A stretch of DNA of 64,000 nucleotides from Terrabacter sp. Ter38 (GTDB lineage Bacteria; Actinomycetota; Actinomycetes; Actinomycetales; Dermatophilaceae): the NCBI RefSeq assembly GCF_024519435.1, contig NZ_JALJRZ010000001.1, forward strand, positions 744,001 to 808,000, in the 5' to 3' direction. Both the position numbers and the translations under genes were made by a program. A model generated the notes under the pieces. The model searched no databases and had not been told where the DNA came from. It was given only the letters and a program-made list of their open reading frames with translations. Below, piece by piece: positions 1,380-63,234 of this stretch. The first letter of the stretch is position 1. Each line of letters starts with the position of its first letter.

Positions 1380-1556
1380 GGACGCCCGGACACCCCGGCC
1401 GGACGGGCGCAGGACGAGGCCGCCCACCCGCTCCCGTGGGCGATGGCGTATGCCGTCCCGCCGGCACCCGCGCGTGACCTCCCACCACTCCCCCTCGTTG
1501 GCCTGTCACGTCGCCACCCTCCACTGACGTGGGGTGGCCCAGCAGAGAGGGATCTC

Positions 1557-3074
1557 ATGCGATCGACCGCCACACGCCGCCTCCGTCTCGGAGCGGCCAC
1601 CTTGGCAGCAGCCACCGCCCTGACCTCGGCCACGGTCGCCGCCGCCTCGCCGGCCTCGTCCGGCCCGCAGTCCGCGCCGTCCGGCGCCGCTGCCGGCCTG
1701 CTGAGCACCGGCCAGGGCCGCGCACCGCTGTCGAGGTGGCTCGCGCAGCACTGGTCGACCCTGTCCGCCGTCACGCCGACGACGGTGCTCGTCCACGCGA
1801 CGGACATCGGGGCCGCGCGCCGTGCCGCCACCGCGTCCGGGCTCACGGTCCGCGACACCTACGACAAGATCGGTGTCGTCGTCGCGGCCGGGCTCCCCGT
1901 GCAGATCGACGCCGTGCGCTCCGTCCCCGGCGTCACGTACGTCGAGGGCAACCAGCCCATCGACCTGTTCCTGTCGACGTCCAACACGGCCACCCGCGGC
2001 TCCGAGGCCCGGGCGACCCTCACGGGGGCGAACGGCACGGCCCTCGACGGCTCCGGCGTGAGCGTGGCCGTCATCGACTCCGGCGTCGACCCGACGCACC
2101 CCTTCCTCCAGAACGCCGACGGCAGCTCGGCCGTCGTGAGGAACCTCAAGATGGTGTGCGACCCGCTCGAGCTGCTCCCCTGCCAGCCCGTCGACGCCGG
2201 CAGCCTCAACACCGACCTGCTCGCCGCGGGCGGTCACGGCATGCACGTCTCCGGCATCGTCGCCGGACGCGACGTCACCCTGTCCGACGGCACGAGGATG
2301 CACGGGGCCGCCCCCGGCGCGAGCATCGTCAGCCTGAGCACCGGCGCCGTGCTGCTCATCGTCGGCGCCGACTCGGCGCTCAACTGGGTCCTCGAGCACC
2401 ACGCCGCGCCCTGCGGCGCGGGCGTCCCGGCCAGCACGTGCCCGCCGATCAAGGTCACGAGCAACTCCTACGGACCGACGGGCGGAGGCGAGTTCGACCC
2501 GAACTCGGCGACGGTCAAGCTCCAGCGCGCGCTCGTCAGCGAGGGCGTCGTCTCGGTCTGGGCCAACGGCAACGACGGCGGCGACGGCTCCGCCAACCTC
2601 TCCAACCCTCCCGGCCAGGACCCGACGGGCGGCATCATCTCCGTCGCGTCGTACAACGACCAGGACACCGGCACCCGCAGCGGCACGGTCAGCGACTTCA
2701 GCTCGCGCGGCCGCTCGGGACAGTTCGCCAGCTACCCCGACATCTCGGCGCCGGGTGAGGGCATCACGTCGTCGTGCCGCATCTACCTGCCGATCTGCAC
2801 GACGGGCGGCGACCCGCGCAACAACGGCGACTACAACACGATCAGCGGCACCTCCATGGCGACGCCGCACATCTCGGGCATCGTCGCGCAGCTCTTCCAG
2901 GCCAACCCGAGCGCGACGCCGGCCCAGGTCGAGGCCGTCATCAAGGCGACGGCCTGGAAGTACACCGACGGGGCCGCCTACGTCAGCGACCCGACCGGCA
3001 ACGGCACGACGTCGTTCGACAAGGGCCATGGCCTCGTCGACGTCGTCGCGGCGGCCACCGCGATCCGTCCCTGA
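1557..3074 (+). CDS. Secreted subtilisin-like serine protease (S8 family)
   Basis: 505-aa exported endopeptidase. Residues 1-29 form a signal peptide (Arg-rich N-terminus, then an Ala/Thr-rich core). About 115 residues follow that resemble an inhibitor I9-type propeptide (the VRSVPGVTYVEGN stretch). The catalytic triad is visible: Asp174 in VIDSGVDPTHP, His227 in GGHGMHVSG and Ser433 in SGTSMATPH, with the oxyanion Asn303 in SNSYG. The start is the ATG at 1557 after an AGAGAGG ribosome site; the reading frame stays open far upstream only because stops are rare at this GC. The gene stands alone between divergent and convergent neighbours. Substrate is unknown. Confidence 0.92.
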   Translation: MRSTATRRLRLGAATLAAATALTSATVAAASPASSGPQSAPSGAAAGLLSTGQGRAPLSRWLAQHWSTLSAVTPTTVLVHATDIGAARRAATASGLTVRDTYDKIGVVVAAGLPVQIDAVRSVPGVTYVEGNQPIDLFLSTSNTATRGSEARATLTGANGTALDGSGVSVAVIDSGVDPTHPFLQNADGSSAVVRNLKMVCDPLELLPCQPVDAGSLNTDLLAAGGHGMHVSGIVAGRDVTLSDGTRMHGAAPGASIVSLSTGAVLLIVGADSALNWVLEHHAAPCGAGVPASTCPPIKVTSNSYGPTGGGEFDPNSATVKLQRALVSEGVVSVWANGNDGGDGSANLSNPPGQDPTGGIISVASYNDQDTGTRSGTVSDFSSRGRSGQFASYPDISAPGEGITSSCRIYLPICTTGGDPRNNGDYNTISGTSMATPHISGIVAQLFQANPSATPAQVEAVIKATAWKYTDGAAYVSDPTGNGTTSFDKGHGLVDVVAAATAIRP

Positions 3075-3132
3075 GGCCGGAGGCAACACCAGCCGCGTCG
3101 CCCGTCCACCCCACCGGTGGGGCCGGTCTGCC

Positions 3133-3138
3133 TATGAT
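3133..3138 (+). promoter_or_regulatory. -10 box of a leaderless promoter
   Basis: TATGAT followed by seven bases and ATG at 3146; no Shine-Dalgarno sequence. It supports 3146, not the in-frame ATG at 3134, as the start. Confidence 0.6.
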
Positions 3139-3145
3139 CGGCCCC

Positions 3146-3619
3146 ATGGGTGGCAGGCACGAGGGCACCGGCGGCAGCCGGCTGCGTGCTCCTGCCGCTC
3201 ACCGGGCCGTCGCGGCCCTCGCCTGTCCCGTCATCGGCTACTTCGTGGCCCGCCTGCTCGTACGGCTCGTCCCGTCGCTGCCCGCGACGATCGCGTATGC
3301 CGTGTGCGTGGCCCTCGCTCTGGCGCTCGGCTGGCGGGCGTGGTCGGCCCGCATCGACCTCGGGACGAAGAGCCTGCGCGTCCACAACACGCTCGCGACG
3401 ACGACGATCGACCGGCGCCACGTCCGCCGTGTGACGTCGAGGGGACGCCTCGAGTGGCGGCGCGGCCAGGGCCGTCCCGTGCGCCTGCCGTCGGAGGCGC
3501 TGCGCGGAGCGTGGTGGACGGTCGGGACGGGGCGTTCGGCATACGCCTTCAACCGGCAGCGGCTCGAGAGCTGGATCCGGCTGTCGTCGCGGGTCGACCT
3601 CGACCCCGAGGCCGCCTGA
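3146..3619 (+). CDS. Small two-helix membrane protein, PH-like
   Basis: 157-aa protein. Two hydrophobic segments (roughly residues 19-37 and 43-60) are followed by a soluble half of about 90 residues with alternating beta-like stretches ([30 protein letters not shown]). This is the pattern of bacterial PH-domain membrane proteins such as the YdbS or DUF2244 type; I infer only this loose resemblance. No catalytic motif is visible. Start at 3146 is chosen because TATGAT lies seven bases upstream. It is convergent with etfA and separated from it by a strong hairpin. Function unknown. Confidence 0.7.
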
Positions 3620-3647
3620 GGCCGACCGGTCACGTGCTCGCACGACA

Positions 3648-3678
3648 GCGGCCCCCGACCACGATGGTCGGGGGCCGC
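3648..3678. terminator. Bidirectional terminator hairpin
   Basis: Perfect 13-bp stem GCGGCCCCCGACC with a 5-base loop (ACGAT), extended by three more pairs beyond one mismatch. It lies between the convergent 3146 gene and etfA. No U tract, as usual in high-GC actinobacteria. Confidence 0.75.
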
Positions 3679-3715
3679 CGTCGTGCGGCGTCGGGCACTC
3701 GGCCCGACGCGGCGG

Positions 3716-4681
3716 TCAGTCCTTGGCGGCCGTGATCGCCTCGGTCGCCTGCGGGAGGACGGTGAAGAGGTCGCCGACGACGCCGAAGTCGACGAGCTCG
3801 AAGATCGGGGCCTCGTTGTCCTTGTTGACGGCCACGATCGTCTTGGACGTCTGCATGCCGGCGCGGTGCTGGATGGCACCGGAGATGCCGCACGCGACGT
3901 AGAGCTGGGGGCTGACCTGCTTGCCCGTCTGGCCGACCTGGCTGGTGTGCGGGTACCAGCCGGCGTCGACCGCGGCACGCGAGGCGCCGACGGCGGCGCC
4001 GAGGCTGTCGGCGAAGTCCTCGACCGTGGAGAAGTCGCCACCGGTGCCACGGCCGCCGGAGACCACGATGGCGGCCTCGGTCAGCTCGGGGCGGCCGGTG
4101 GCCTGCTTCGGCTTGGACTCGGTGATCTTGGCGCCCTTGGCAGCCTCGGACGGGGTGAAGTCGAGCACCTCGTCCGCGGCCGCACCGGCGACCTCCTCGG
4201 GGGTGGCCGAGTTGGGCTTGACGGCCACGATGGGCGTGCCCTTCGTGACGGTGGCCGACACCGTGTAGGAGCCGGCGAAGACCGACTGCGTCGTCGCGAC
4301 ACCCCCGCTGCCGTCACCAGCGGCCTGGACGTCGACGGCGTCGGTGATCAGGCCCGACTCCGTCTTGACGGCGAGGCGGGCGGCGATCTCCTTGCCCTCC
4401 GGCGAGGACGGCACGAGGACCGCGGCCGGGGACGCCGAGGAGACGAGCTGGGCGAGCAGCTCGGCCTGCGGGACGACGAGGTGCTCGAGCACCTCGGGCG
4501 ACTCGACGCGGTAGACCTTCTCGGCGCCGAAGCGGGCGAGGGTGTCCTTGGCGGCGTCGAAGCCGGGGCCGATGAAGACGGCGGACGGCTCGCCGAGGCG
4601 GCGGGCGATCGTCAGCAGCTCCGAGGTGGTCTTGCGGACCTTGCCCTCGACGTGGTCGACGAGCACGAGTACTTCAGCCAT
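3716..4681 (-). CDS. etfA: Electron transfer flavoprotein alpha subunit
   Basis: 321-aa subunit that, with EtfB, accepts electrons from acyl-CoA and related dehydrogenases and passes them to the quinone pool. The N-terminal half matches the ETF alpha/beta fold ([15 protein letters not shown]). The C-terminal half carries the FAD-binding region: [17 protein letters not shown], the [17 protein letters not shown] stretch and the closing [15 protein letters not shown] segment. An AAAGGAG ribosome site precedes the ATG. It lies 41 bases downstream of etfB in the usual etfBA order. Co-expression with beta-oxidation or ethylmalonyl-CoA steps is likely. Confidence 0.96.
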
Positions 4682-4722
4682 GGTGCGGATCTCCTTTGCT
4701 GGCTGGGAAGGTCAGGGGCAGG

Positions 4723-5514
4723 TCAGACGAACTTGCGCTCGGTGAGGAACGCGGCGAGCTTGGCGCCGCCGTCGCCCTCGTCGGCGACGATCTCGCCCTG
4801 GCTGCGCGGGGGGCGCGCGGTGAAGGACTCGACCTTCGTCCAGGCGGCGTCGAGGCCGACCTGCGCGGCGTCCACGCCGAGGTCGGCCAGGCTCCACTGC
4901 TCGACGGGCTTCTTCTTCGCGGCCATGATCCCCTTGAAGGAGGGGTAGCGCGGCTCGTTGATCTGGTCGGTGACCGACACGAGGGCCGGCAGCGTGGCCG
5001 TGATCGTCTGGGTCGAGGCATCGCCGTCGCGGCGGATCGTCGCCGTGGAGCCCTCGACGGTCAGCTCGGACGCGAACGTCACGGCCGGCAGGCCGAGTCG
5101 CTCGGCGAGCATCGCGGGCACGACACCCATGGTGCCGTCGGTCGAGGCCATCCCGGTGACGACGAGGTCGACAGCCGTCTCAGCCCCGATCTTCTTGATG
5201 GCCTCGGCGAGGACGAGGGAGGTCGCGATGGCGTCGGAGCCGTGGATGGCGGCGTCGTTGACGTGCACGGCTTTGTGGGCGCCCATCTGCAGGGCCTTCT
5301 TGACGGCGTCGGCGGCGGCGTCGGGGCCCACCGTCAGGACGGTGACCTCACCCTCGCCGGCCTCGACGATCTTCAGGGCCTCCTCGACCGCGTACTCGTC
5401 GAGCTCCGACAGCAGACCGTCGACGTTCTCGCGGTCGGTCGTGTTGTCAGATGCGTTGAACGTGCGCTCGGCCTGGGCGTCCGGCACGTACTTGACACAG
5501 ACGACGATGTTCAT
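4723..5514 (-). CDS. etfB: Electron transfer flavoprotein beta subunit
   Basis: 263-aa AMP-binding partner of EtfA. It starts with MNIVVCVKYVPD, typical of the family, and shows the VVTGMASTDGTMG segment and the C-terminal ITDQINEPRYPSFKGIMAAK stretch expected of EtfB. The open frame extends to 5892, but the ATG at 5514 has a GGAAGAGGA ribosome site and matches the family N-terminus. First gene of etfBA. Its upstream region carries a perfect 18-bp palindrome (5596-5613) and a small leader hairpin (5559-5578), so repression by a dimeric regulator is likely. Confidence 0.96.
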   Translation of the reverse strand: MNIVVCVKYVPDAQAERTFNASDNTTDRENVDGLLSELDEYAVEEALKIVEAGEGEVTVLTVGPDAAADAVKKALQMGAHKAVHVNDAAIHGSDAIATSLVLAEAIKKIGAETAVDLVVTGMASTDGTMGVVPAMLAERLGLPAVTFASELTVEGSTATIRRDGDASTQTITATLPALVSVTDQINEPRYPSFKGIMAAKKKPVEQWSLADLGVDAAQVGLDAAWTKVESFTARPPRSQGEIVADEGDGGAKLAAFLTERKFV

Positions 5515-5613: not shown

Positions 5614-5687
5614 CCGCACGCCTCTGGCGTGACGCTCACCACCAGACCCTTGGCGTATGCCGCCCCTGTCGTCCGCGCGCACGCGGC

Positions 5688-7212: not shown

Positions 7213-7992
7213 TCATCGACCCTCGAACTGCGCCTTGCCGGGACCGTGCTCGACGAACGAGGACATGCCGATCTCCCGGTCCTTCGTCGCGAAGAGCGAG
7301 GCGAAGAGCAGCCGCTCGATCTCGAGCCCGGTCTCGAGGTCGACCTCGAGACCACGGTCGATGGCCTCCTTGGCGGCGCGGACGGCATACGACGCGGCAC
7401 CGACGAAGGTCGACGCCCACTCCCGAGAAGCGGTGTAGACGTCGGCGGCCGGCACGACCTTGTCGGCGAGGCCGATGGCGAGCGCCTCCCGGGCGTCGAC
7501 GAAGCGGCCGCTGAAGATGATCTCCTTGGCGCGCGAGGCTCCGACGAGACGCGAGAGGCGCTGCGTGCCGCCGGCCCCCGGGATGATGCCGAGGAGGATC
7601 TCGGGCTGGCCGAGCTTGGCGTCGTCGGCGACGACACGGAAGTCGCACGCGAGCGCCAGCTCGCAGCCGCCACCGAGCGCATACCCCGTGATCGCGGCGA
7701 TGACCGGCTTCGGGATGCGCGCCACGGCGCTGATCGAGCTCATGAGCGGACCGGAGCGCTCGACCATGTCGGTGTACGACATCGTCTGCATCTCCTTGAT
7801 GTCCGCGCCAGCGGCGAAGACCCGCTCACCGCCGTAGACGATGACCGCCTTGACGTCGGTGCGCGCGGTCGCCTCGGCGGCGGCCTCGCGGATCTCCTCC
7901 TGGACCTGGACGTTGAGGGCGTTCATCTTCGGCCGGTCGAGACGGATCGTGCCGACGCCGTCCTCGACCTCGAGCCGGACGAACTCGCCCAT
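7213..7992 (-). CDS. Enoyl-CoA hydratase (crotonase family)
   Basis: 259-aa hydratase adding water to trans-2-enoyl-CoA. Both catalytic glutamates of the rat crotonase type are present: E111 in GGGCELALACD and E131 in GQPEILLGIIPGAGG. The oxyanion-hole segment FAAGADIKEM lies at residues 59-69. In this genomic context it probably converts (S)-3-hydroxybutyryl-CoA and crotonyl-CoA between HBD and Ccr, or serves beta-oxidation. Its ATG overlaps the stop of the upstream YbjN-like gene by one base (TGATG), so the two are coupled, an unexplained pairing. Confidence 0.93.
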   Translation of the reverse strand: MGEFVRLEVEDGVGTIRLDRPKMNALNVQVQEEIREAAAEATARTDVKAVIVYGGERVFAAGADIKEMQTMSYTDMVERSGPLMSSISAVARIPKPVIAAITGYALGGGCELALACDFRVVADDAKLGQPEILLGIIPGAGGTQRLSRLVGASRAKEIIFSGRFVDAREALAIGLADKVVPAADVYTASREWASTFVGAASYAVRAAKEAIDRGLEVDLETGLEIERLLFASLFATKDREIGMSSFVEHGPGKAQFEGR

Positions 7993-8576: not shown

Positions 8577-10718
8577 ATGTGCCCGCCCTCTCCCGCGACG
8601 CCAGACCTGCCTCCCGAGCACGGGGTCCGGCTCACCGCCGAAGGAGCCCAGTTCTCCGTCTACGCCGGCCATGCCCGGGCCGTCGAGGTGTGCCTCTTCG
8701 ACACCGACGCCGACGGCGCCGAGACCGAGCGACGGGTGCCGCTGCGGCACCGGGCGCACGGCACGTGGTTCGACACCGTGCCGGGGGTCGGGGCGGGCCA
8801 GCGCTACGCCTTCCGCGTCGACGGCGACTGGGACCCCGACCGGTCCCTGCTGCACAACCCTGCCAAGCTGCTCCTCGACCCCTACGCCCGTGCCGTCGAG
8901 GGCGGCGTCCGGCTCGACCCGGCCGTCTACGCCCACCGCGTCGGCCCGGACCTACACGGTGACCTCTGGGTGCGTGACGACCGCGACTCAGCGCCACACA
9001 TGCCCCGCTGCGTCATCGTCGAGGACGAGTTCGACTGGGGCGCAGACGAGTTCCCACGACGCTCACTCACCGAGTCGATCATCTACGAGGTCCACGTCAA
9101 GAACGCCACCCGGCTGCACCCGGGCGTCCCCGAGGAGCTCAGGGGGACGTATGCCGGCCTCGCCCACCCCGCGTTCGTCGACCACCTGCTCGGGCTGGGT
9201 GTCACGGCCGTCGAGCTCCTGCCGGTGCACACCTTCACGCACGAGCCCGACCTGGTGCTCCGCGAGCTGACGAACCACTGGGGCTACAACACGCTCGGGT
9301 TCTTCTCCCCGCACGCCGCCTACGCGTCGACGGCAGACCCGCAGGGCGCCCTCGACGAGTTCAAGACGATGGTCAAGGACCTCCACGCGGCCGGTATCGA
9401 GGTCCTTCTCGACGTCGTCTACAACCACACGGCCGAGAACGCCCGCGAGGGGATGACGCTCTCGTGGCGCGGGCTCGACCAGCGGGCGTACTACCGCGTC
9501 GACGGTCGGGGCCGCGACATCGACGTCACCGGGTGCGGCAACACCCTCGACCTGACGCACCCCGTCGTCGCCCGGATGGTCCTCGACTCGCTGCGCTACT
9601 GGGTGCAGGAGTGCCACGTCGACGGCTTCCGCTTCGACCTCGCCGTCGCCCTCGGCCGCGGCAAGGACGACGGCTTCGACCGCGACCACCCGTTCCTCGT
9701 GGCCCTGCGCACCGACCCCGTCCTGTCCCGCGCCAAGCTCGTGGCCGAGCCGTGGGACCTCGGCATCCACGGCTGGCGCACCGGGCAGTTCCCGCCGCCG
9801 TTCTCGGAGTGGAACGACCGCTACCGCGACACGACCCGGACCTTCTGGCTGCGCGACCTCGCCGCCTCCGCGTTAGGAGGGGTCGGCCACGGCGTCCGCG
9901 AGCTGGCCACCCGCCTGGCCGGGTCGCAGGACCTCTTCGACCGACACGACCGCGGCACCATCGCCTCCGTCAACTTCGTGACAGCTCACGACGGCTTCAC
10001 GCTCGCCGACCTGACGACCTACGACACGAAGCACAACGGTGCGAACGGCCACAGCGGCGCCGACGGCTCCAACGACAACCGGTCGTGGAACCACGGCGTG
10101 GAGGGCCGCACCGACGACTGCGCCATCACGACCGCGCGGCGCCGCTCGATCCGCAACCTGCTCGGCACGCTCCTGCTGTCGACCGGCGTGCCCATGCTCA
10201 ACGCCGGTGACGAGCTGGGACGGAGCCAGCGCGGCAACAACAACCCCTACTCCCAGGACAACGAGATCAGCTGGATGTCCTGGGACCTCGAGCCATGGCA
10301 GGCCGACCTCCTCGACACGACGCGGCACCTCGTCCGACTGCGGCACGAACACCCCGTGCTCCGGCAACGGGCGTTCTTCTCCGGCAGGCAGATCCATGCG
10401 GATGGCTCGACCGACCTCGGGTGGTTCGCGGCCGACGGACACCCCATGGGCGATCGCTGGGACGGCCCTGCCGCCCACGTCCTGCAGGGCCTCTACGACG
10501 GTGCGCGCCTCTCCCAGCGGTCGGTGCTCATCGTCGTCAACGGCTCGGCGCACCCGGTCGAGGTCACCCTGCCGACGGCGCCCGGAGCGGCGGCCTACGA
10601 GCTGCTCTGGGACAGCGCCGAGGAGCGGCCCGCTCCCCCGTCGGATGCCGTCGACGCGGGCGTCCCCGTCATGATGGGTGCCGCATCGATGCGTGTCTGG
10701 CGCTCGACCGCCGACTGA
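8577..10718 (+). CDS. glgX: Glycogen debranching enzyme GlgX
   Basis: 713-aa GH13 enzyme that hydrolyses alpha-1,6 branches of (phosphorylase-trimmed) glycogen. An N-terminal CBM48-like beta domain (residues 10-110) precedes the barrel. Catalytic residues: D354 in GFRFDLA, E391 in VAEPWD and D472 in TAHDGF. The DELGRSQRGNNNPYSQDNE segment is typical of GlgX/TreX. The frame is open from 8067, but ATG 8577 fits the family N-terminus and has TACGCT seven bases upstream. It is convergent with glgP, across a long terminator, giving debranching and phosphorolysis side by side. Confidence 0.95.
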   Translation: MCPPSPATPDLPPEHGVRLTAEGAQFSVYAGHARAVEVCLFDTDADGAETERRVPLRHRAHGTWFDTVPGVGAGQRYAFRVDGDWDPDRSLLHNPAKLLLDPYARAVEGGVRLDPAVYAHRVGPDLHGDLWVRDDRDSAPHMPRCVIVEDEFDWGADEFPRRSLTESIIYEVHVKNATRLHPGVPEELRGTYAGLAHPAFVDHLLGLGVTAVELLPVHTFTHEPDLVLRELTNHWGYNTLGFFSPHAAYASTADPQGALDEFKTMVKDLHAAGIEVLLDVVYNHTAENAREGMTLSWRGLDQRAYYRVDGRGRDIDVTGCGNTLDLTHPVVARMVLDSLRYWVQECHVDGFRFDLAVALGRGKDDGFDRDHPFLVALRTDPVLSRAKLVAEPWDLGIHGWRTGQFPPPFSEWNDRYRDTTRTFWLRDLAASALGGVGHGVRELATRLAGSQDLFDRHDRGTIASVNFVTAHDGFTLADLTTYDTKHNGANGHSGADGSNDNRSWNHGVEGRTDDCAITTARRRSIRNLLGTLLLSTGVPMLNAGDELGRSQRGNNNPYSQDNEISWMSWDLEPWQADLLDTTRHLVRLRHEHPVLRQRAFFSGRQIHADGSTDLGWFAADGHPMGDRWDGPAAHVLQGLYDGARLSQRSVLIVVNGSAHPVEVTLPTAPGAAAYELLWDSAEERPAPPSDAVDAGVPVMMGAASMRVWRSTAD

Positions 10719-10754
10719 CGTCGAGACCCCGGCACACGGCATACGTCCTCGGAC

Positions 10755-13513: not shown

Positions 13514-15718
13514 GTGACTGGCTCAGCGAAGAAGCCCCGTTCCAGCAAGCCGAACCGCGTGCGCAGCGCCGCTCCCCCAGCTCCACGACGCGACGATGCC
13601 ACCCCGACCGCAGACACCGCGTTCGTCGACGACACCGAGGCAGGAGCCGTCCACCTCGCCCCCGACCACCCCGTGAGCGCGCCGCCGACCGTCGAGGGCA
13701 TGCCGGGTGGCGCGCTCCCGATGGGCCGCATCCCCGTGAGCGACGTCCGCCCTCTCGTCGACGGCGGCACGCGCCCGGCGAAGTCGGTCGTCGGCGAGGA
13801 GTTCACCGTCCGGGCCAAGGTCTTCCGCGAGGGCCACGACGCGGTCAACGCGACCGCAGTGCTCACCGACCCTGACGGCACCGACCACTACTTCGCCATG
13901 CACAGCGTCAACCCCGGCCTGTCCGAGTGGGCCGCCACCGTCGTCGCCGACCGCGAGGGTTGGTGGACCTACCGCGTCGAGGGCTGGTCCGACCCGTACG
14001 CGACGTGGGTGCACGACGCCGGCATCAAGATCGCCGCCGGCGTCGACGAGGACCTCATGTGCGCCGAGGGCGTCCGCGTGCTCGAGCGTTTCGCCACGGC
14101 CGTCCGCGGCCTCGGCGTCGACGCCTCCGAGATCGACAAGGGTGTCGTCGCCCTGGGCGACAACCGGACCCCGGCCGCGCACCGCTTCGGCGCGGCGACG
14201 TCACCGGAGATCGCCGGCCTCGCCGCCCTCGTGCCGCTGCGGGAGTTCGTGTCGGCCTCACCGGCATACTCCCTGCTCGTCGAGCGCGAGCGCGCGCTCT
14301 ACGGCGCCTGGTACGAGATCTTCCCCCGGTCCGAGGGCGCCCACCGCGACGAGAAGACCGGCGAGTGGGTCTCGGGAACGTTCAGGTCCGCCGCCGAGCG
14401 GCTGCCCGCCATCGCCGACATGGGCTTCGACGTCGTCTACCTGACGCCGATCCACCCGATCGGGACGACGGCCCGCAAGGGCCGCAACAACTCGCTCGCG
14501 GCCCAGCCCGGCGACCCGGGATCCCCTTATGCCATCGGGTCGCCCGACGGCGGCCACGACGCGATCCACCCCGACCTCGGCACGTTCGAGGACTTCGACC
14601 ACTTCGTCGCCGAGACGCGACGGCTCGGCATGGAGGTGGCTCTCGACATCGCGTTGCAGGCCTCCCCCGACCACCCGTGGGTCCAGACCCACCCCGACCT
14701 CTTCACGACGCGGGCCGACGGCACCATCGCCTACGCCGAGAACCCGCCGAAGAAGTACCAGGACATCTACCCGCTCAACTTCGACAACGACCCGGCCGGG
14801 TCCTACGCCGAGGTACGCCGGGTCATCCAGGTGTGGCTCGACCACGGGGTGCGCATCTTCCGCGTCGACAACCCCCACACGAAGCCGGTCGCCTTCTGGC
14901 AGTGGCTGATCGCCGATGTCGCACAGAACCACCCCGACACCATCTGGCTGTCCGAGGCCTTCACCAAGCCGGCGATGATGCACCACCTCGCCAAGGCCGG
15001 CTTCCAGCAGAGCTACACCTACTACGCGTGGCGCAACGCGAAGTGGGAGCTCGAGGAGTACGGCACCGAGCTCGCGGGCGAGGACACCGGGTCGGCGTAC
15101 ATGCGCCCGGCCTTCTGGCCGACGACGCACGACATCCTCACCCCATACATGCAGTACGGCGGCCCCACCGCGTGGAAGCTGCGCGCCGCGGTCGCCGCGA
15201 CGATGGCCCCGACGTACGGCATCTACGCCGGCTACGAGCTGATGGAGCACGTGGCCCGTCCGGGGGCCGAGGAACAGCTCGACAACGAGAAGTACGAGTA
15301 CAAGGACCGCCAGTGGTACCTCTACGAGCCGGGCGGGCCCCTCGAGAGCCGCTCGCTCGCCTGGTACCTCAAGCGGCTCAACGACATCCGCTCCTGGCAC
15401 CCCGCGCTGCACTGGCTGCGCAACCTGCGCTTCCACGCCGCCGACGACGAGAACGTCATGGTCTTCAGCAAGTCCCGTGTCGTCGACCGGGCCACGGGCG
15501 AGCGCGACACCGTCCTCGTCATCGCCAACCTCGACCCGCACGCCACGCGTGAGACGTGGGTGCACCTCGACATGGAGGCACTGGGTATGGCCACGTGGTC
15601 GACGTTCGACGCACACGACCACATCACGAACCAGACGTGGGAGTGGCGCCAGGACAACTTCGTGCGGCTCGGTCCCGACTCCGAACCCGTCCACATCATC
15701 CACGTGAGGAGCCACTGA
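13514..15718 (+). CDS. glgE: Alpha-1,4-glucan:maltose-1-phosphate maltosyltransferase
   Basis: 734-aa GH13 transferase that extends alpha-1,4-glucan with maltosyl units from maltose-1-phosphate. After a disordered N-terminal tail (about residues 1-75) comes the family-typical GRIPVSDVRP and the immunoglobulin-like domain, then the barrel with nucleophile D452 in FRVDNPHTKP and acid/base E481 in LSEAF; both contexts are characteristic of GlgE rather than amylases. The frame is open from 13415, but GTG 13514 has TACGGT seven bases before it. First gene of glgE-treS-mak-glgB-pgm, the complete route from trehalose to branched glucan. Confidence 0.95.
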   Translation: MTGSAKKPRSSKPNRVRSAAPPAPRRDDATPTADTAFVDDTEAGAVHLAPDHPVSAPPTVEGMPGGALPMGRIPVSDVRPLVDGGTRPAKSVVGEEFTVRAKVFREGHDAVNATAVLTDPDGTDHYFAMHSVNPGLSEWAATVVADREGWWTYRVEGWSDPYATWVHDAGIKIAAGVDEDLMCAEGVRVLERFATAVRGLGVDASEIDKGVVALGDNRTPAAHRFGAATSPEIAGLAALVPLREFVSASPAYSLLVERERALYGAWYEIFPRSEGAHRDEKTGEWVSGTFRSAAERLPAIADMGFDVVYLTPIHPIGTTARKGRNNSLAAQPGDPGSPYAIGSPDGGHDAIHPDLGTFEDFDHFVAETRRLGMEVALDIALQASPDHPWVQTHPDLFTTRADGTIAYAENPPKKYQDIYPLNFDNDPAGSYAEVRRVIQVWLDHGVRIFRVDNPHTKPVAFWQWLIADVAQNHPDTIWLSEAFTKPAMMHHLAKAGFQQSYTYYAWRNAKWELEEYGTELAGEDTGSAYMRPAFWPTTHDILTPYMQYGGPTAWKLRAAVAATMAPTYGIYAGYELMEHVARPGAEEQLDNEKYEYKDRQWYLYEPGGPLESRSLAWYLKRLNDIRSWHPALHWLRNLRFHAADDENVMVFSKSRVVDRATGERDTVLVIANLDPHATRETWVHLDMEALGMATWSTFDAHDHITNQTWEWRQDNFVRLGPDSEPVHIIHVRSH

Positions 15719-15721
15719 CGC

Positions 15722-21134: not shown

Positions 21135-22773
<1,639 letters not shown>

Positions 22774-41440: not shown

Positions 41441-41615
41441 GGGTGCTCCTCGAGCTGGTCGGGTGGGTGAGCCACCCGCCGCGGCGGGGGGCCGTCGTGT
41501 TCTCCTGCACCTGTCCCGTGCCCGTATGCCGTCCCGCGCGGGCCGCGGGCGCGCACCGCGACGTGGCCCGGGCTGACACGCCACGGGCAACCGTCGCCCC
41601 GGCGCGTGCCTGACG

Positions 41616-44646: not shown

Positions 44647-44955
44647 TCAGCGGTAGGAGTTGCCGCTCGGACGCGCGTCGCGCTTCTGCCAGCAGCCGGT
44701 GTGCCAGTGCCGCCGGTCCCCCAGCCCGCCCACGCCCTCGGCCGGCCACACGACGACGTGTGGGAGGCCCGGGGGAATGTCCTGCTGGCAGCCCGGACAC
44801 AGGTAGTCACGGGTGGCGGACGCGCCGCTCACCGAGCGCACGGTCCAGCGCGTGCCGGCATACGACTCCTCACGGGTCGAGCCGCCCTGGATCCGCGTCA
44901 CGTCGAGCGGCACGTGCTCGCGCGCGTGCTTGCTGGGACGTCGACGCGAGGGCAT
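44647..44955 (-). CDS. Small zinc-ribbon-like protein
   Basis: 102-aa basic protein, often annotated only as ATP/GTP-binding in actinobacteria. The N-terminal 20 residues are Arg/Lys-rich. A metal-site-like arrangement is seen near the C-terminus: YLCPGCQQDI, then HVVVW and HWHTGCW (two Cys, then His/Cys ligands). No nucleotide-binding motif is visible. ATG 44955 is supported by TACGCT six bases upstream. It lies 16 bases downstream of the HBD gene but probably has its own transcript. Role unknown; nucleic-acid binding is plausible. Confidence 0.72.
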   Translation of the reverse strand: MPSRRRPSKHAREHVPLDVTRIQGGSTREESYAGTRWTVRSVSGASATRDYLCPGCQQDIPPGLPHVVVWPAEGVGGLGDRRHWHTGCWQKRDARPSGNSYR

Positions 44956-47535: not shown

Positions 47536-47557
47536 CCGAGGGCGTATGCCGTGTGGC
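47536..47557. repeat. 22-bp exact repeat, copy 2
   Basis: Identical to 43034-43055; here it lies four bases after the nucS stop, between convergent genes. Confidence 0.9.
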
Positions 47558-48275: not shown

Positions 48276-48622
48276 CAGGACAGGCCCTCGATCGGCTGGG
48301 CGGTGACGCCGTCTGCGTCGACGAGCAGCATGAGCGGGTCGGGTGCCTCCCCTCCGCGCACGACGACGACGGTCTCGCCGCGGTGCCGGTCGACGAGCTC
48401 CTCGAGTCCGGACGACCCGTCGTGGAGGTCGCCGTGCCCGAGGTGCGAGGGGACGCCGAGGTCGTCGGCCAGCGACTCGACCGGGCCGGTGTCGGGGACG
48501 TCGTCAGCGGCATACACCGCCTGGACCTTCTCGAGGTGGATCGCGGACGCCAGCCAGGCGACGTCGGAGAGCGCCGGAGGGTTGACGACGATGACGCGCG
48601 CGGCGCACTGCAGGTCGCTCAT
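48275..48622 (-). CDS. Hypothetical protein coupled to the AlkD-like gene
   Basis: 115-aa acidic protein that I do not recognise. It shows an alternating alpha/beta pattern: RVIVVNPPALSDVAWLASAI, then VQAVYAADDVPDTGPVE, a central GHGDLHDGSSG loop and ETVVVVRGGEAPDPLML near the end. The pattern recalls truncated histidine-phosphatase or NUDIX-like folds, but catalytic residues are missing, so no function is claimed. ATG 48622 has TAGCGT seven bases upstream. Its stop overlaps the AlkD-like start (TGATG), so the pair is one unit. Confidence 0.65.
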   Translation of the reverse strand: MSDLQCAARVIVVNPPALSDVAWLASAIHLEKVQAVYAADDVPDTGPVESLADDLGVPSHLGHGDLHDGSSGLEELVDRHRGETVVVVRGGEAPDPLMLLVDADGVTAQPIEGLS

Positions 48623-53462: not shown

Positions 53463-53900
53463 TCAGGCGACGTTGACGTTGTAGCCGGGGGGTGCGGCTT
53501 CCTGCCACGAGCGCAACGCGGTGTAGGCGGGCCCCTGGAGGGCCAGCTCGAAGTCGCTGCCGCCGTCGCTGCAGGGGACCCGGCTCGCGTCGGGCAACAG
53601 CGGGATCGAGTCGCTCGCGCTCAGCGGCTCAGGGGCGTCGAGCAGCAGGCGCTGACGCAGCCAGCGGTGCTTGGGGCGCACGGAGACGCCCCCGAGGGCA
53701 TACCACTCGAGGGCGTTGTCGCCGAACCTGATGAGACCCAGGCGCCAGCGGTCGGACTCCGTGCGGCGCATGCCGCAGAGGGTCAGGGGCAGACCCTTGG
53801 CGATGTAGCGCCGGCGCAGGTAGGTCGTCGCGAGGACGACCACCGCGACCACCAGGAGCATGCCGATCACGATCTCGGTCGAGGCGAGAACGGACGGCAC
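53463..53900 (-). CDS. DUF2550-family membrane protein
   Basis: 145-aa protein. One N-terminal helix (STEIVIGMLLVVAVVVLATTYL, residues 7-28) is followed by a soluble domain with the family-typical RWRLGLIRFGDNALEWYALGGVSVRPKHRW. DUF2550 genes commonly follow atpC in actinobacteria, as here: atpC ends eight bases upstream. GTG 53900 has TGAGG upstream. Function unknown. Confidence 0.86.
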   Translation of the reverse strand: MPSVLASTEIVIGMLLVVAVVVLATTYLRRRYIAKGLPLTLCGMRRTESDRWRLGLIRFGDNALEWYALGGVSVRPKHRWLRQRLLLDAPEPLSASDSIPLLPDASRVPCSDGGSDFELALQGPAYTALRSWQEAAPPGYNVNVA

Positions 53901-54739: not shown

Positions 54740-54787
54740 CGCGTCCCCGGCGCGCGCCCGCGGGCACGACGCCGACCACGTATGCCG

Positions 54788-56395: not shown

Positions 56396-58183
56396 TCATC
56401 CGGCCCGCCTCAGGACGACGATCTGCGAGGTCTGTGACACGACGCGGTAGTGGGCGACGACCCAGTCACGCAACGGGTCGGCCTCGTGGACGTAGCGGTG
56501 GTGGCCGTACCCCGGCCAGAAGTCCCGGGCCGCCACCACGCACTCCGGCACGCGTCCCGAGCGCTGCATCCAGTCGAGCACGTCCTGGCTCGTCGTGCCG
56601 AAGAAGTCCATCCAGACGATCGGGGTGTCGAAGCGGAGGTCGGCATAGAGGAAGGCCGCCGGGTGGATGTAGTCGAGCGCCCCGTCCCCGGGCCGTGCGC
56701 ACGCGTGCACGGCCTGCTCGTTGGCCTCGAGCTCGGCACGGTGCGGCTCGGTGGTCCGGAGCCCGGCGAAGGCACCGCCCGGGGCGTCCGCCACGAGGGC
56801 GGTCGGTGGCCCGTCGCGGAAGCTGTTGAGCGCGTGGACCGTCCCGAAGGACGCGAGGAGGAGACCTGCCACCGCCACCTTCGCCGGGCGCGTGCCGACG
56901 TGCACGAGTGCGGCGACGGTCACGGCGAGCAGCCCGGGCGCCAGCACCGCCGCCGTCGCCCCCCACACCGGGCCGGAGGAGGTGAACGCGGCGAGGAAGG
57001 GCATGCCGACGAGCGTGGGTGTCAGGCCGAGAAGGGTCAGGCGGGCCACGGGTCCCCGGGTCCGTACCGCGACGACGACGAGGACCGGCAGCAGGACGAC
57101 GACCAGGACGGTGCCGAGCAGCGGGGTGAGCCACGACAGCACGGTGTACGTCGTCGAGACCACCCCGCTCTGGAGGGCCTGGACCGTGACCGCACCGACG
57201 GCGAGGAGCACGAGCGGCACCCTCAGGCGTCGCGCAGCGGGAACCGCAGCGAGCAGGGCGAGTGGCACCGCGAGCAGGACCCACGGGCTCGCGAGGGCGG
57301 TCCCGACCTGGGAGGTCCACCGCCCGAGCCGGTCCCAGCGACTCGGGCGCGCGGCCTGGTAGGCGTCGGTGAAGGCCACGGTCGCCGAGATGTCGGCCGG
57401 GCCCCAGACCACGAGGGCGAGGACCCCGACGACCGCACCGACGACGAGTGCACCGCACGCGACCGCCAGCACTCCGCGCCGCGCCGAGACGAGGTCGAGC
57501 GCGCCGGGACGCCGTTCGCCGGGCGCGCGACCCGACCTCGAGGTCGCCGCGTCGAGGCGCCAGAGCAGCACGCCGAGCACGACGAGGAGCGCGGCTGCCG
57601 CTGGGGCTGTCACGGGGTGGCTCACCGCCCCGAGCGCGGTCGCCGCCCCCGCCGACACGGCATACGGGCGCGCGCAGCGGACGCAGCGGATGGCGGCGCC
57701 CAGCCCGCAGCACACGGCGAGGAGGTACATCAGCGCCGGGGTCGTGTTGTACGACACGACCTGCTGGTTGTATGCCGCCGGCAGCAGCGCCACGGCCAGC
57801 GCGCACGCGCTCGTGCCCCGACCGAACGCCGGTGCGATCGCGCGCCAGCACACGGCCCCCACGCCGGCGCAGACGAGCACGAACCACACCCGCGAGGCGA
57901 GCACGAGGCCGTCGAGCCCGACGACGTGTTCCCAGATCCACACGAACGGGACCGCGGGCCAGGCACCGAGCGCCTGGACGTTCATCTCGTCCCGGAACGG
58001 GACGTCACCCTGGGCGAGCCGGAGCGCCAGCTCCACGGCGTGCGAGCTGTCGCTGAGGTCCACCCCGTAGCGGGCGCGGGCGATCGCGACGGCCACGACG
58101 GCCACCGCGAAGCACGGCACCCAGAGACGACGAACGGGGAGGGCCCCAAGGGCACCTCCCCGTCGTCGGGTGAATCGATCCAT
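56396..58183 (-). CDS. Polytopic membrane protein, GT-C glycosyltransferase-like
   Basis: About 595-aa protein with roughly ten to twelve hydrophobic helices over residues 15-430 and a soluble C-terminal domain (about 430-595). The first loop contains YGVDLSDSSHAVELALRLAQGDVPFRDEM; its acidic pair resembles the first periplasmic loop of GT-C mannosyl-/arabinosyltransferases. The C-terminal part has FYADLRFDTPIVWMD-like strands. Donor and acceptor are unknown. ATG 58183 begins five bases after the atpD stop, so it occupies the place normally held by atpC; a longer start at 58246 would overlap atpD. No strong ribosome site; coupling to atpD is likely. Confidence 0.72.
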   Translation of the reverse strand: MDRFTRRRGGALGALPVRRLWVPCFAVAVVAVAIARARYGVDLSDSSHAVELALRLAQGDVPFRDEMNVQALGAWPAVPFVWIWEHVVGLDGLVLASRVWFVLVCAGVGAVCWRAIAPAFGRGTSACALAVALLPAAYNQQVVSYNTTPALMYLLAVCCGLGAAIRCVRCARPYAVSAGAATALGAVSHPVTAPAAAALLVVLGVLLWRLDAATSRSGRAPGERRPGALDLVSARRGVLAVACGALVVGAVVGVLALVVWGPADISATVAFTDAYQAARPSRWDRLGRWTSQVGTALASPWVLLAVPLALLAAVPAARRLRVPLVLLAVGAVTVQALQSGVVSTTYTVLSWLTPLLGTVLVVVLLPVLVVVAVRTRGPVARLTLLGLTPTLVGMPFLAAFTSSGPVWGATAAVLAPGLLAVTVAALVHVGTRPAKVAVAGLLLASFGTVHALNSFRDGPPTALVADAPGGAFAGLRTTEPHRAELEANEQAVHACARPGDGALDYIHPAAFLYADLRFDTPIVWMDFFGTTSQDVLDWMQRSGRVPECVVAARDFWPGYGHHRYVHEADPLRDWVVAHYRVVSQTSQIVVLRRAG

Positions 58184-58188: not shown

Positions 58189-59676
<1,488 letters not shown>

Positions 59677-60676: not shown

Positions 60677-60716
60677 CTTCCGTCTGCCGCCCGGCTGGCC
60701 GGGCGGCATACGGAAG
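60677..60716 (-). other. Intercistronic hairpin between atpA and atpG
   Basis: An 18-bp stem with a single mismatch and loop CTGG: 60677-60694 against 60699-60716. One arm carries the GTATGCC motif (60705-60711). It lies inside the operon, 62 bases before atpG, with no U tract, so it may be an attenuator or an mRNA processing/stability site. Confidence 0.7.
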
Positions 60717-60720
60717 GTGG

Positions 60721-62352
60721 TCACTTCTGCTTGACGATCTTCGCCTGGGTGATCTGGTCGTCGGCGATCTCGTCGAACTCCTCGTTGCCGGCCTCGAGGC
60801 CGTCCTTGCCGGTGCCCCGGAAGGTGAACTTGACCTCGTCCACGACCTTGGACAGGGCCGTCTCGGTGTCCTCGTCGAGCTTGAGGGTCTCGCGGATCGT
60901 CTGGAGGATCTTGCCGTCCCGACGCAGCGTCTCGAGCAGCTCGGCTTCGAAGTTGCGCACGTCCTCGACGGCGACGTCGTCGAGCTTGCCGGTCGTGCCG
61001 GTCCAGATCGAGACGACCTGCTCCTCGACGGGGTACGGCGAGCTCTGCGGCTGCTTGAGCAGCTCGACGAGGCGCGCACCACGGGCGAGCTGGGCCCGCG
61101 AGGCCGGGTCGAGGTCGGAGGCGAACATCGCGAACGCCTCCATGGCGCGGAACTGCGCGAGGTCGAGCTTGAGTCGACCGGCGACGGACTTCATCGCCTT
61201 GATCTGCGCGGCTCCGCCGACTCGGGAGACCGAGACACCCACGTCGATCGCGGGACGCACGTTGGCGTTGAACAGGTCGGCCTGGAGGTAGATCTGGCCG
61301 TCCGTGATCGAGATGACGTTGGTCGGGATATAGGCCGAGACGTCGCCGGCCTTGGTCTCGATGATCGGCAGACCCGTCATCGAGCCGTGGCCGAGGTCGT
61401 CGGACAGCTTCGCGCAACGCTCGAGGAGGCGGCTGTGCAGGTAGAAGACGTCACCCGGGTAGGCCTCGCGGCCCGGCGGACGGCGCAGCAGCAGGGACAC
61501 GGCGCGGTAGGCCTCGGCCTGCTTGCTCAGGTCGTCGAAGACGATGAGGACGTGCTTGCCCTGGTACATCCAGTGCTGGCCGATGGCCGAGCCGGTGTAG
61601 GGCGCGAGGTACTTGAAGCCCGCCGAGTCGGACGCGGGGGCCGCGACGATCGTGGTGTACTCCAGCGCGCCGGCCTCTTCGAGCGTGCCGCGGACCGACG
61701 CGATGGTCGAGCCCTTCTGGCCGATGGCGACGTAGATGCAGCGGACCTGGGCGTCGGGGTCGCCCGACTCCCAGTTGCGCTTCTGGTTGATGATCGTGTC
61801 GATCGCGACCGTCGTCTTGCCGGTCTGGCGGTCGCCGATGATGAGCTGGCGCTGGCCGCGGCCGATCGGCGTCATCGCGTCGATCGACTTGATGCCGGTC
61901 TGGAGCGGCTCGTGGACCGACTTGCGCTGGACGACGTTGGGGGCCTGCAGCTCGAGGGCACGACGCTGCTCGGACTTGATGTCGCCGAGACCGTCGATGG
62001 GGTTGCCGAGCGGGTCGACGACGCGACCGAGGAAGTCGTCACCGACCGGGACCGAGAGGACCTCGCCCGTGCGCTTGACGGTCTGGCCCTCCTCGATGCC
62101 GGCGAAGTCACCGAGGACGACGACGCCGATCTCGTGGACGTCGAGGTTGAGCGCGAGGCCGAGCGTGCCGTCCTCGAACTGGAGCAGCTCGTTGGTCATG
62201 GCCGAGGGCAGACCCTCGACGTGAGCGATGCCGTCACCGGCGTCGGTGACGCGGCCGACCTCTTCGCGGGAGGCCGCGCCGGGCTCGTAGGACTGGACGA
62301 ACGAGTCCAGTGCGTCCCGGATCTCCTCCGGACGGATCGAAAGCTCCGTCAT
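60721..62352 (-). CDS. atpA: F1 ATP synthase alpha subunit
   Basis: 543-aa regulatory nucleotide-binding subunit. The Walker A GDRQTGKT at residues 173-180, the [11 protein letters not shown] segment and the arginine-finger region [10 protein letters not shown]-like ([12 protein letters not shown]) with [13 protein letters not shown] are canonical. The C-terminal extension after about residue 510 (charged, ending in IVKQK) is of the kind seen in mycobacterial AtpA, where it suppresses ATP hydrolysis; its effect here is inferred. GAGGAG precedes the ATG. Confidence 0.98.
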
Positions 62353-62421
62353 GTCAGATCTTCTCCTCGGTTTCGACCCGCAGGACGGGCCGGTGGTTGA
62401 TCACAGCTGGTGGTGGGTGCC

Positions 62422-63234
62422 TCAGGCACCCATGGCCCGGCGGGCCGCGTCGAGCTTGCGGATGACGGTTCCGTCGATGAGCTCGTCACCGATCTCGACC
62501 TTGACCCCGCCCATGACCCGGGGGTCCACGACGGTGTTGACGTGGACCGTGCCGCCGTAGATGGCAGCCAGGCCCGCTGCGAGGCGGGCACGGTCGTCGT
62601 CGGTGAGCGGGACGGCCGAGGTGACGGTGGCCGTCTGCTGCTCGCGGCGGCTCGAGGCCGTCTCGAGGTACTTCTCGAGGACCCGGTCGAAGCGCAGGCC
62701 GCGCGGGGCGACCACGGCCTGACGGGCCAGCACGAGGGTCTCGGGTGCGACCTTCTCCCGAAGGAGCGAGGACACGAGGTCGGCCCGCTTGTCGGCGGGC
62801 GCCTGCGAGTCGGCCAGCGCCGAGCGCAGCGGGGCGTCGGCCGCCACGATGCGCTCGAAGCGGAACAGCTCGTCCTCGACGCGGTCGGCGCGACCCTGGG
62901 TCTCCGCCTCGGCGATGACGGCCTCGACGGCATACGACTCGACGGTGTCGGTCAGGTCACGCTCGGAGCTCCAACGCTGCCCGAAGGCACCCTTGAGCAC
63001 GACGAGCGTCTCGGCGCTGACCTTGCCCGCGAAGAGACGCTCGGCGAGCTGGGCCTTGTCGACACCGTCGCGGGACGGATCGGCCACGGCGCGACGCAGG
63101 GTCGCGCTGCCGTCGATGATCCCGACGACCGCGAAGAGCTCCTCGGCCAACCGCGAACGGTCGGCACCGGCAGCGAGGACGCCGGTGAGAGCCTCGCGGC
63201 TCGCCGCCGCTGCTGCGCGTGAGGGTCCCTGCAT
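62422..63234 (-). CDS. atpH: F1 ATP synthase delta subunit
   Basis: 270-aa peripheral stalk subunit. N-terminal helical bundle typical of OSCP/delta (SREALTGVLAAGADRSRLAEELFAV), a duplicated-looking middle, and the C-terminal strand pair with VTSAVPLTDDDRARLAAGLA and VDPRVMGGVKVEIGDELIDG. At 270 aa it is longer than the E. coli delta (177 aa) but normal for actinobacteria that do not fuse b and delta. Its ATG overlaps the atpF stop by one base (TGATG). Confidence 0.97.
   Translation of the reverse strand: MQGPSRAAAAASREALTGVLAAGADRSRLAEELFAVVGIIDGSATLRRAVADPSRDGVDKAQLAERLFAGKVSAETLVVLKGAFGQRWSSERDLTDTVESYAVEAVIAEAETQGRADRVEDELFRFERIVAADAPLRSALADSQAPADKRADLVSSLLREKVAPETLVLARQAVVAPRGLRFDRVLEKYLETASSRREQQTATVTSAVPLTDDDRARLAAGLAAIYGGTVHVNTVVDPRVMGGVKVEIGDELIDGTVIRKLDAARRAMGA

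Follow-up and report, generated by a model that had tools for sequence, protein, structure and literature searches.

The heptamer GTATGCC is maintained as a DNA word in the genome of Terrabacter sp. Ter38. This conclusion, which a preliminary description had reached from the sequence alone, is strongly supported by a codon-aware null and by the comparison of codons between species. As far as tested, the word is confined to one family, the Dermatophilaceae, Gram-positive bacteria of soil and water in which copies run into the thousands per genome and different lineages carry different words. By analogy with the DNA uptake sequences of Neisseria and Haemophilus, we lean towards a self-DNA tag as the explanation. 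To our knowledge, Gram-positive bacteria are regarded as taking up DNA unspecifically.

Abundance and maintenance of the word

The window, the whole stretch of 64,000 nucleotides that was analysed, holds 36 exact copies of GTATGCC, 17 forward and 19 reverse, all at the coordinates and on the strands first reported. Dinucleotide shuffles of the window contain a mean of 1.59 and a maximum of 7 (n=100), and a third-order Markov model expects 4.05 copies (1.95 for GTATGCCG), so the initial estimate of about six was too high. The extensions counted by hand were recovered, 31 copies reading GTATGCCG and 24 CGTATGCCG. By gene calls, intergenic copies lie on the forward strand at 1448-1454, 5655-5661, 32659-32665, 41524-41530, 47544-47550 and 54780-54786, and on the reverse strand at 10738-10744 and 60705-60711. 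An inverted pair at 36102-36122 has its left arm on the reverse strand (36102-36108), its right arm on the forward strand (36116-36122), and divergent called genes on either side. The other forward copies are at 3295-3301, 9149-9155 (identical in the alignment in 7/7 other genomes of the genus), 18336-18342, 20996-21002, 30056-30062, 31506-31512, 42042-42048, 42597-42603, 43042-43048 and 57770-57776. The other reverse copies are at 3538-3544, 7384-7390, 14263-14269, 22468-22474, 25026-25032, 26502-26508, 30296-30302, 30896-30902, 33854-33860, 44857-44863, 45896-45902, 48509-48515, 53697-53703, 57659-57665, 58796-58802 and 62929-62935. Both the excess and the strand balance extend to the whole genome, which has 2185 copies (1091 forward and 1094 reverse) against 349 (173/176) of the reversed word, a control count that is itself inflated by the usual flank of GTATGCC.

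Genes were called with a home-made, under-calling ORF scorer, which gave 83% coding over 464 kb. In the window, called genes cover 90% of the sequence and contain 26 of the 36 words, and the 10 intergenic copies obtained with these crude calls compare with 11 in the preliminary description; in the window's genome, the density is 0.73 per kb between genes and 0.36 within them. The use of rare codons to spell the word had been claimed for both TAT and GCA. It is confirmed for TAT, with 18 of 26 such codons of the window's called genes and 93/170 over 464 kb falling inside the word, whereas GCA was overstated: the called genes of the window use it 98 times, so it cannot be called rare, and only 6 of these codons are within the word. 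Neither of the two outcomes that the preliminary description named as refuting its idea is borne out: the genome-wide counts lie well above the reversed-word control, and TAT is concentrated in the word.

An artefact of mutation or codon context could in principle account for such a pattern, since 125 of 148 genic copies fall on Tyr-Ala or Ala-Tyr. However, the 137 genic copies of GTATGCCG (out of 199 in all) far exceed the 12.8 given by per-gene synonymous shuffles (maximum 22, n=200) and the 7.3 given by pooled ones. Genic word frequency is 11-19 times above what codon usage allows, and the excess over pooled codon shuffles is 6-27 fold, varying by word and by genome. Codon usage alone is thus ruled out. 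The higher intergenic density of the window's genome also speaks against the artefact, although GTATGCCG in another genome, G125, is no denser between genes than within them. In addition, TAC is replaced by TAT more often where the change creates the word, and word-free relatives of similar base composition exist. This explanation is already largely refuted and deserves hardly any credence. A REP-like element is ruled out as well, because most copies are single genic words, with little conserved flank around them.

Comparisons between species agree with maintenance at the codon level. Between related species, TAT is retained in 76-80% of cases inside the word and in 11-31% elsewhere, and TAT, GCA and ATA are all better kept inside it than outside (for ATA, from one region only). 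Whole words give a mixed answer. In the window region, one of two compared, GTATGCC is retained in 292/442 cases, above the 92/281 of GTACGCC, but no better than other 7-mers with three A/T (66%). In the window's genome, words one mismatch away from GTATGCC show hardly any enrichment, with the exception of GGATGCCG (112 against 48 in a second-order model, and 88 against 53 in codon shuffles). The scarcity of this halo counts against an uptake drive, which we would expect to leave one.

Spacing, strand and hairpin pairs

Copies had been described as fairly evenly spaced. When both strands are taken together this does not hold, the coefficient of variation (CV) being 1.03 and thus no more even than random, but it does strand by strand, with a CV of 0.84 when eight genomes are pooled, random placement giving 0.99 on average. 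At distances below about 1 kb, pairs of copies on the same strand are depleted, whereas pairs on opposite strands by and large are not. The avoidance, an unexpected result, was found in 8/8 sampled genomes and for all three words (GTATGCC, GGATGCCG and CGAAGGGGG), which suggests that whatever reads the word is probably orientation-specific, the spacing being an indirect sign of this. Loci from other Terrabacter are orthologous and for this reason do not enter the pooled pair counts; among them, +- pairs closer than 1 kb are likewise scarce (3 against 8.2 expected), and in genome G072 so are -+ pairs (6 against 11.7).

Chi is a short, asymmetric, over-represented word that is read orientation-specifically, and GTATGCC resembles it in being short, asymmetric and over-represented. 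The word could be an orientation-dependent signal for recombination or repair, either a Chi-like site that stops an enzyme of the AdnAB/RecBCD type or one that marks a strand for mismatch repair, which would need a site every ~1-2 kb on each strand. The same-strand avoidance below 1 kb, with opposite strands largely independent, would fit, as would a supply of both strands that is locally more even than chance (chi-square 19.3 over 52 segments) and the word-poor mobile DNA described below. In E. coli, Chi sites show a strong skew to one strand relative to replication; here there is no such skew, as a 75:25 imbalance would give a chi-square near 229, and a Chi with E. coli-like skew is ruled out by the strand balance. 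Furthermore, a recombination or repair signal leaves the hairpin pairs, another difference from Chi, unexplained, and single-site selection without drive would hardly keep a 6-27 fold excess. We consider such a signal unlikely.

The hairpin pairs arise from inverted copies of the word. Within 60 bp there are 24 +- pairs against 7.8 expected, 8 of which have a perfect stem of at least 10 bp, and one hairpin has a predicted fold of -49.9 kcal/mol (z -8). Such terminator-like hairpins made of inverted word pairs are also characteristic of DNA uptake sequences (DUS) and uptake signal sequences (USS). Among 41 GGATGCCG sites of genome G178, no hairpin pair was found. At locus L020, two copies of one 37-bp hairpin resemble each other.

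The preliminary description had also listed a nucleoid or segregation site among its three candidates. A site bound by a nucleoid-associated protein, or by one that organises the chromosome, would agree with dispersal over the whole genome, intergenic copies included (10/36 in the window). It fits poorly because spacing depends on orientation: a protein that binds double-stranded DNA is not expected to make copies in the same orientation alone repel each other. Word density in the sampled contig also varies little, apart from a few word-poor stretches of 20 kb. We therefore give this candidate very little weight.

One word-poor region, which carries a relaxase element and also a Tad cluster, holds 5 words in 40 kb, compared with 161 in 340 kb (p 0.0005). 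A 20-kb stretch, L009, has 3 copies and is just as poor, and no mobile-element family was recognised in the two of its proteins that were scanned. One Ornithinimicrobium plasmid, counted by itself, carries 11 words in 100 kb. A search of viral contigs with one window ORF, listed mechanically and possibly no gene, gave no match.

Dialects within the family

At least 600 copies of GTATGCC occur in 108 of 186 family genomes (range 657-4856 among those 108), although five of them (G013, G014, G017, G049 and G050) have less than twice their own reversed-word control. A survey of 347 genomes included 318 outside the family, drawn from 19 others of the same order, and none of these has at least 100 GTATGCCG per strand. 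Within the family, GGATGCCG serves as the word in 7/184 genomes and CGAAGGGGG in 19/184, none of the latter among the 108 rich in GTATGCC; these counts and those of gene families cover 184 genomes, a set that does not contain the incomplete G130 and G138. Two genomes have both GTATGCC and GGATGCCG, and in one of them the two words occur together in 4/4 contigs examined. The dialects comprise variants of the flank and of the core, and CGAAGGGGG has no evident core in common with the other words. In 54/186 genomes, many with com genes, none of the three word thresholds is reached. The words cluster on a ComEC tree, as expected of the clade-specific dialects that mark DUS and USS. The tree was built quickly from a single gene; it has 69 rows and leaves 18 inner branches open, G076 was dropped from it (no ComEC) and G122 was kept (a fragment of 486 residues); named loci without genome counts are labelled by the copies in the fetched locus.

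Some weaker signals were not counted as words. GTACGCCG exceeds codon shuffles in genes 4.5 fold in G097 and 3.8 fold in G010, GTACGACG is also raised in G097, and GGATGCCG is mildly raised in two g47 genomes. Rows for Nocardioides and Streptomyces pool orthologous loci and are unusable for word finding.

Switching of words also has a parallel in methylation. As proposed for cyanobacterial HIP1, an orphan methyltransferase might recognise the word, methylation-dependent repair or another process would raise its frequency, and a switch of dialect would be a switch of methyltransferase. HIP1 is likewise strongly over-represented and replaced by other words in some relatives, and alternate HIP words are reported to be accompanied by methyltransferases that match them, so that word switching would be expected here too (Elhai, 2015, PMC4390886). 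However, HIPs are palindromic and nearly coextensive with their methyltransferases, whereas GTATGCC, GGATGCCG and CGAAGGGGG are asymmetric and spaced per strand. Nor is it obvious why methylation should lead to hairpin pairs or make same-strand copies avoid each other up to 1 kb. The search for enzymes covered a single methyltransferase family, the MmeI type, a scope that works in favour of this explanation. Methyltransferases of that type make asymmetric marks. Matches to MmeI_Mtase occur in 68/184 family genomes, few of them strong; eight of nine genomes of the window's genus have none, and the ninth has one at E 2e-4, under the cut-off. MmeI-type methylation is not supported, since the window's own genome is without a match. 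Methylation is thus an improbable explanation, about on a par with the recombination or repair signal.

A candidate self-DNA tag and its machinery

Of the three candidates first put forward, an uptake-sequence-like repeat fits best, owing to the clade-specific dialects, the hairpin pairs and the one word-poor mobile element. The surface DNA receptor of the competence machine would prefer DNA carrying the word, and such fragments would enter and recombine more often. This biased import and recombination could write copies in and keep them, even against codon preference. After changes of the receptor, lineages would have passed from one word to another (GTATGCCG with variable flanks, GGATGCCG, CGAAGGGGG), thereby separating their gene pools. 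The uptake machine itself would be the reader and would act in one orientation, for instance by choosing the imported strand or a side of the word, and the reach of about 1 kb may correspond to how long a piece of DNA each import event uses.

Known uptake sequences offer a close precedent. DUS and USS are words of about 8-12 bp in strong genome-wide excess on both strands, and the present word shows such an excess. In Neisseriaceae, DUS are short asymmetric words, genic and intergenic on both strands and thousands per genome, with terminator-like inverted pairs, clade dialects, one species with two of them and relatives with none, all features found here (Frye et al., 2013, PMC3630211). In contrast to DUS, the present hosts are Gram-positive actinobacteria, no neisserial-type pilus machine is recognised in the window's genome, and one lineage has a word (CGAAGGGGG) that shares no evident core. 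We know of no same-strand avoidance below 1 kb for DUS. As for USS of Pasteurellaceae, those of Haemophilus influenzae lie on average about 1 kb apart and form hairpin pairs at the ends of genes (PMC7811141), and dialects are described within the family (PMC12616744), as in Dermatophilaceae. USS differ in the word itself, in hosts that carry an outer membrane, and in a receptor predicted to be a type IV minor pilin. One statement in that literature limits self-specific uptake through enriched words to two proteobacterial families (PMC12616744).

It is an evenly balanced question whether Dermatophilaceae have the first Gram-positive system of self-DNA uptake words, with at least three words, one without an evident common core, in a single actinobacterial family, and with an orientation-specific machine that has a reach of about 1 kb and finds each strand separately and evenly supplied. 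Should the words prove to be uptake tags, sexual isolation based on DNA "dialect" would also have evolved in a large actinobacterial family, which offers many species for comparison, including close relatives that lack the word or have switched it. The strand-specific spacing rule offers a new clue to how such words are read.

No receptor for the word was found by comparing gene families, neighbourhoods and residues in the family. Across 184 genomes, none of ComEC (179/184), HHH_3, the DNA-binding domain of ComEA (181/184), T2SSE (183/184) and PilM_2 separates word-bearing from word-free genomes. The comEA/comEC import genes expected of an uptake system are present but not diagnostic, as word-free genomes have them too. 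PilM_2, a part of the type IVa pilus, occurs in 7/184 genomes and is absent from that of the window, which makes a machine of the neisserial ComP type improbable here. No gene separates the two groups in the neighbourhood of comEA-comEC (20 loci) or within one kind of Tad locus (20 loci), and no DNA-binding residue of the ComEA HhH, compared by eye in 43 of 44 loci, tracks the word. Genomes with and without the word both have Tad genes, and Tad-type genes are conserved in 20/20 loci, these having been chosen for a T2SSE match.

Abundance and retention of GTATGCC

All 36 GTATGCC sites listed for the window in the preliminary description proved exact in position and strand (17 forward, 19 reverse; shuffle mean 1.59), and the extensions claimed for them were also right, with 31/36 copies continuing to the 8-mer GTATGCCG and 24/36 to the 9-mer CGTATGCCG. 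The top-scoring 8-mer of the window is GTATGCCG, observed 31 times vs 1.95 expected under a third-order Markov model. The excess stands in a larger sample of 464 kb (the window and 20 fetched stretches of 20 kb from the same genome), where the same model predicts 10.9 copies of GTATGCCG and 199 are present. Genome-wide, in 4.83 Mb on 54 contigs, GTATGCC occurs 1091 times forward and 1094 times reverse. The backward-read control word CCGTATG is found 173 and 176 times on the two strands, a count itself inflated because this control overlaps the usual flank of GTATGCC.

At the word sites the DNA itself, and not just the protein, is kept. The count of GTATGCCG in 412 crudely called genes is 137, vs 12.8 after per-gene synonymous codon shuffling (maximum 22 in 200) and 7.3 after pooled synonymous shuffling. 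The concentration of TAT codons in the word, also claimed previously, is borne out in these genes (93/170), and 13 of their 27 ATA codons lie inside it. Codon retention was compared among eight genomes of the genus, over two regions and only where the amino acid is kept. In these comparisons, which are non-independent as they share genomes and sites, in-word TAT is retained in 82/108 and 183/229, and TAT outside the word in 8/75 and 43/139. GCA is retained in 108/121 and 83/121 comparisons in the word and in 257/1387 and 327/1132 elsewhere. The TAC of GTACGCC, one step off the word, is retained in 109/130 and 110/143, less than TAC elsewhere (3991/4063 and 7937/8046). The contrast between TATGCC and TACGCC raised in the preliminary description is clear in the comEC region, where the whole word is retained in 346/406 comparisons vs 142/273 for GTACGCC and 53% for other three-A/T 7-mers. 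In the window region the word again outdoes GTACGCC (92/281) but does not outdo other three-A/T 7-mers (66%). Whole-word retention in that region is just 292/442, and thus word sites turn over.

Distribution and dialects in the family

GTATGCC is abundant in each of the nine genomes of the genus. In the family, a threshold of 600 copies is reached by 108/186 genomes (range 657-4856), and the other 78 hold up to 553; word-poor species occur within word-rich genera (genomes G016, G092, and G122). Elsewhere in the order, none of 318 genomes from 19 other families exceeds 94 copies of GTATGCCG per strand. A survey of 80 named loci around comEC showed the word to be frequent in those of Terrabacter, Intrasporangium oryzae, Humibacillus, Knoellia remsis, Phycicoccus elongatus, and several Ornithinimicrobium. 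No copy was found at the comEC loci of Intrasporangium flavum and Janibacter indicus, and those of Nocardioides, Streptomyces, and Kribbella have 0-3 copies each. Genomes identified by name are Terrabacter sp. Root85 (G005), Humibacillus xanthopallidus DSM 21776 (G047), Phycicoccus elongatus Lp2 (G173), Arsenicicoccus bolidensis DSM 15745 (G013), Ornithinimicrobium tianjinense (G144), Intrasporangium flavum (G107), and Dermacoccus abyssi (G028).

Words were also counted de novo in 40-100 kb samples from 20 family genomes plus that of Ter38. The preferred word is CGTATGCCGT in Ter38, GTATGCCG in G047 and G087, GGTATGCCGCG in G150 and G173, GGTATGCC in G125 (where the base after it is freer), GGATGCCG in G178, and CGAAGGGGG in the Janibacter-like G072; in most remaining word-poor samples, no word of comparable strength emerged. 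Pooled codon shuffles back each word, with observed vs expected counts of 28 vs 4.6 for GGATGCCG in G178, 46 vs 6.3 for CGAAGGGGG in G072, 83 vs 3.6 for GTATGCCG in G150, and 56 vs 2.1 for GGTATGCC in G125. In whole-genome counts, CGAAGGGGG reaches 396-985 per strand in 19/184 genomes (16 from genus g27, three from g36) and never exceeds 40 in the remaining 165. GGATGCCG reaches 983-2258 per strand in 7/184 (genera g9, g51, and g15) and no more than 674 in any other genome. At least one of the three word thresholds is reached by 132/186 genomes, and none by 54/186. GTATGCC and GGATGCCG are both abundant in two genomes, G044 and G045. The two words co-occur in all four G044 contigs fetched for that purpose, which makes a mixed bin unlikely.

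The words are clustered on a quickly built ComEC tree (69 rows), which requires one change for CGAAGGGGG, two for GGATGCCG, and 10 for GTATGCC vs a shuffled mean of 23.3. The G044/G045 pair is sister to a GGATGCCG pair, and the two sampled g27 genomes group with Janibacter indicus. Word switches are predicted as well for a HIP-like word linked to methylation (PMC4390886), an explanation that we consider unlikely here.

Weaker excesses were seen elsewhere. In G097 (L049, L060-L063) and G010 (L208, L209), GTACGCCG stands at about four times the codon-shuffle expectation, which may reflect a further dialect (GTAYGCCG) or a wider GTACGNCG preference. In G092 (L040, L064-L067), which is without the three words, GTACGGCG and TTGGCCAG exceed the codon-shuffle expectation by a factor of about 3-4.

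Orientation, spacing, and hairpin pairs

Word copies are spread along the full length of genes in both senses, and their spacing depends on strand. In 772 sites pooled from eight genomes (1.17 Mb), no same-strand pairs are seen at 8-60 bp vs 14.3 expected. The observed/expected ratio is 0.32, 0.37, 0.48, 0.73, and 0.55 in successive bins from there to 1 kb, and is back to 1.06 at 1-1.5 kb. Hairpins aside, opposite-strand ratios are 0.86-1.27 up to 1 kb. The exceptions are -+ pairs in G072 (6 vs 11.7 expected) and +- pairs in orthologous Terrabacter loci excluded from the pool (3 vs 8.2). Same-strand depletion below 1 kb is present in all eight genomes (0.40-0.58) and for all three words; for five control words in the six GTATGCC genomes, the same-strand ratio is 0.88-2.08. 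Strand counts per segment are evener than binomial (chi-square 19.3, 52 segments), and the "fairly even" spacing of the preliminary description applies strand by strand (CV of same-strand gaps 0.84 vs 0.99). The word's reader thus appears to see orientation, to act over about 1 kb, and to make no distinction between GTATGCC, GGATGCCG, and CGAAGGGGG, so that the three words are linked to a single kind of process.

An mRNA effect was ruled out as the cause of the spacing: the 339 sense and 250 antisense copies form 148 mixed pairs within single genes, beside which both sense-sense (51) and antisense-antisense (25) pairs are rare.

There are 24 inverted pairs, in which the complement follows the word within 60 bp, vs 7.8 expected (eight genomes, three words), and eight of the 24 are hairpins with a perfect stem of at least 10 bp. 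Uptake and an orientation-dependent recombination or repair signal would fit the spacing rule equally well, but the latter leaves these hairpins unaccounted for, and we judge it improbable. In the Ter38 sample, the seven close inverted pairs are all intergenic by the gene calls used, and two of them follow a gene end at 12 and 19 bp. One of these two (L020:7161-7197) is within a 66-nt stretch folding at -49.9 kcal/mol (z -8).

Identical 37-bp word-based hairpins are found 5.4 kb apart at L020:7161-7197 and L020:12580-12616, a layout that resembles a duplicated terminator. In G072, five places have a pair of palindromic elements, each about 32 bp long (AACYCTGCARRACCCTAGGGTYYTGCAGRGTT, a by-eye consensus) and the two about 42 bp apart: L068:16470 and 16512, and L071:530/573, 1742/1784, 16844/16886, and 18535/18577.

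Self-preferring uptake as a candidate process

Among the processes known to us, DNA uptake with self-preference explains most of the features, and the balance tips slightly toward the word being a putative tag for such uptake. Biased import of self-DNA would drive copies into the genome by the thousand in spite of codon preference. It could also account for the dialects and the intermediates that carry two of them, for the absence of the word from some species that have lost it, for the hairpin pairs, and for the scarcity of the word in mobile DNA, seen in one region and one plasmid. Orientation-specificity would follow if the imported strand or side were set by the word, because one strand passes ComEC, as described for H. 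influenzae (PMC7811141). ComEC and the ComEA domain are both nearly universal in the family, as is T2SSE, so import equipment is present in word-bearing and word-free groups alike. Searches of the family genomes found no receptor for the word. In Liberibacter, Tad pili are reported to take part in DNA uptake (PMC8513845). Searches of the open-access literature for uptake sequences in Actinobacteria or the 7-mer, and for Terrabacter competence, Janibacter DNA uptake, or over-represented motifs in Intrasporangiaceae, turned up no such words.

Window positions 25536-30000 encode ABC transporter ATPases and an FtsX-type permease of 1036 aa; since there is no long match among those listed from the eight other genomes of the genus, this segment is probably accessory. 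Two stretches have few words and a GC content of 67-68%: G000:C11:1-20000 (L001), with a TrwC relaxase-primase protein, and G000:C11:40001-60000 (L002), with a Tad-type cluster. Together they are perhaps an integrated conjugative element or a plasmid.
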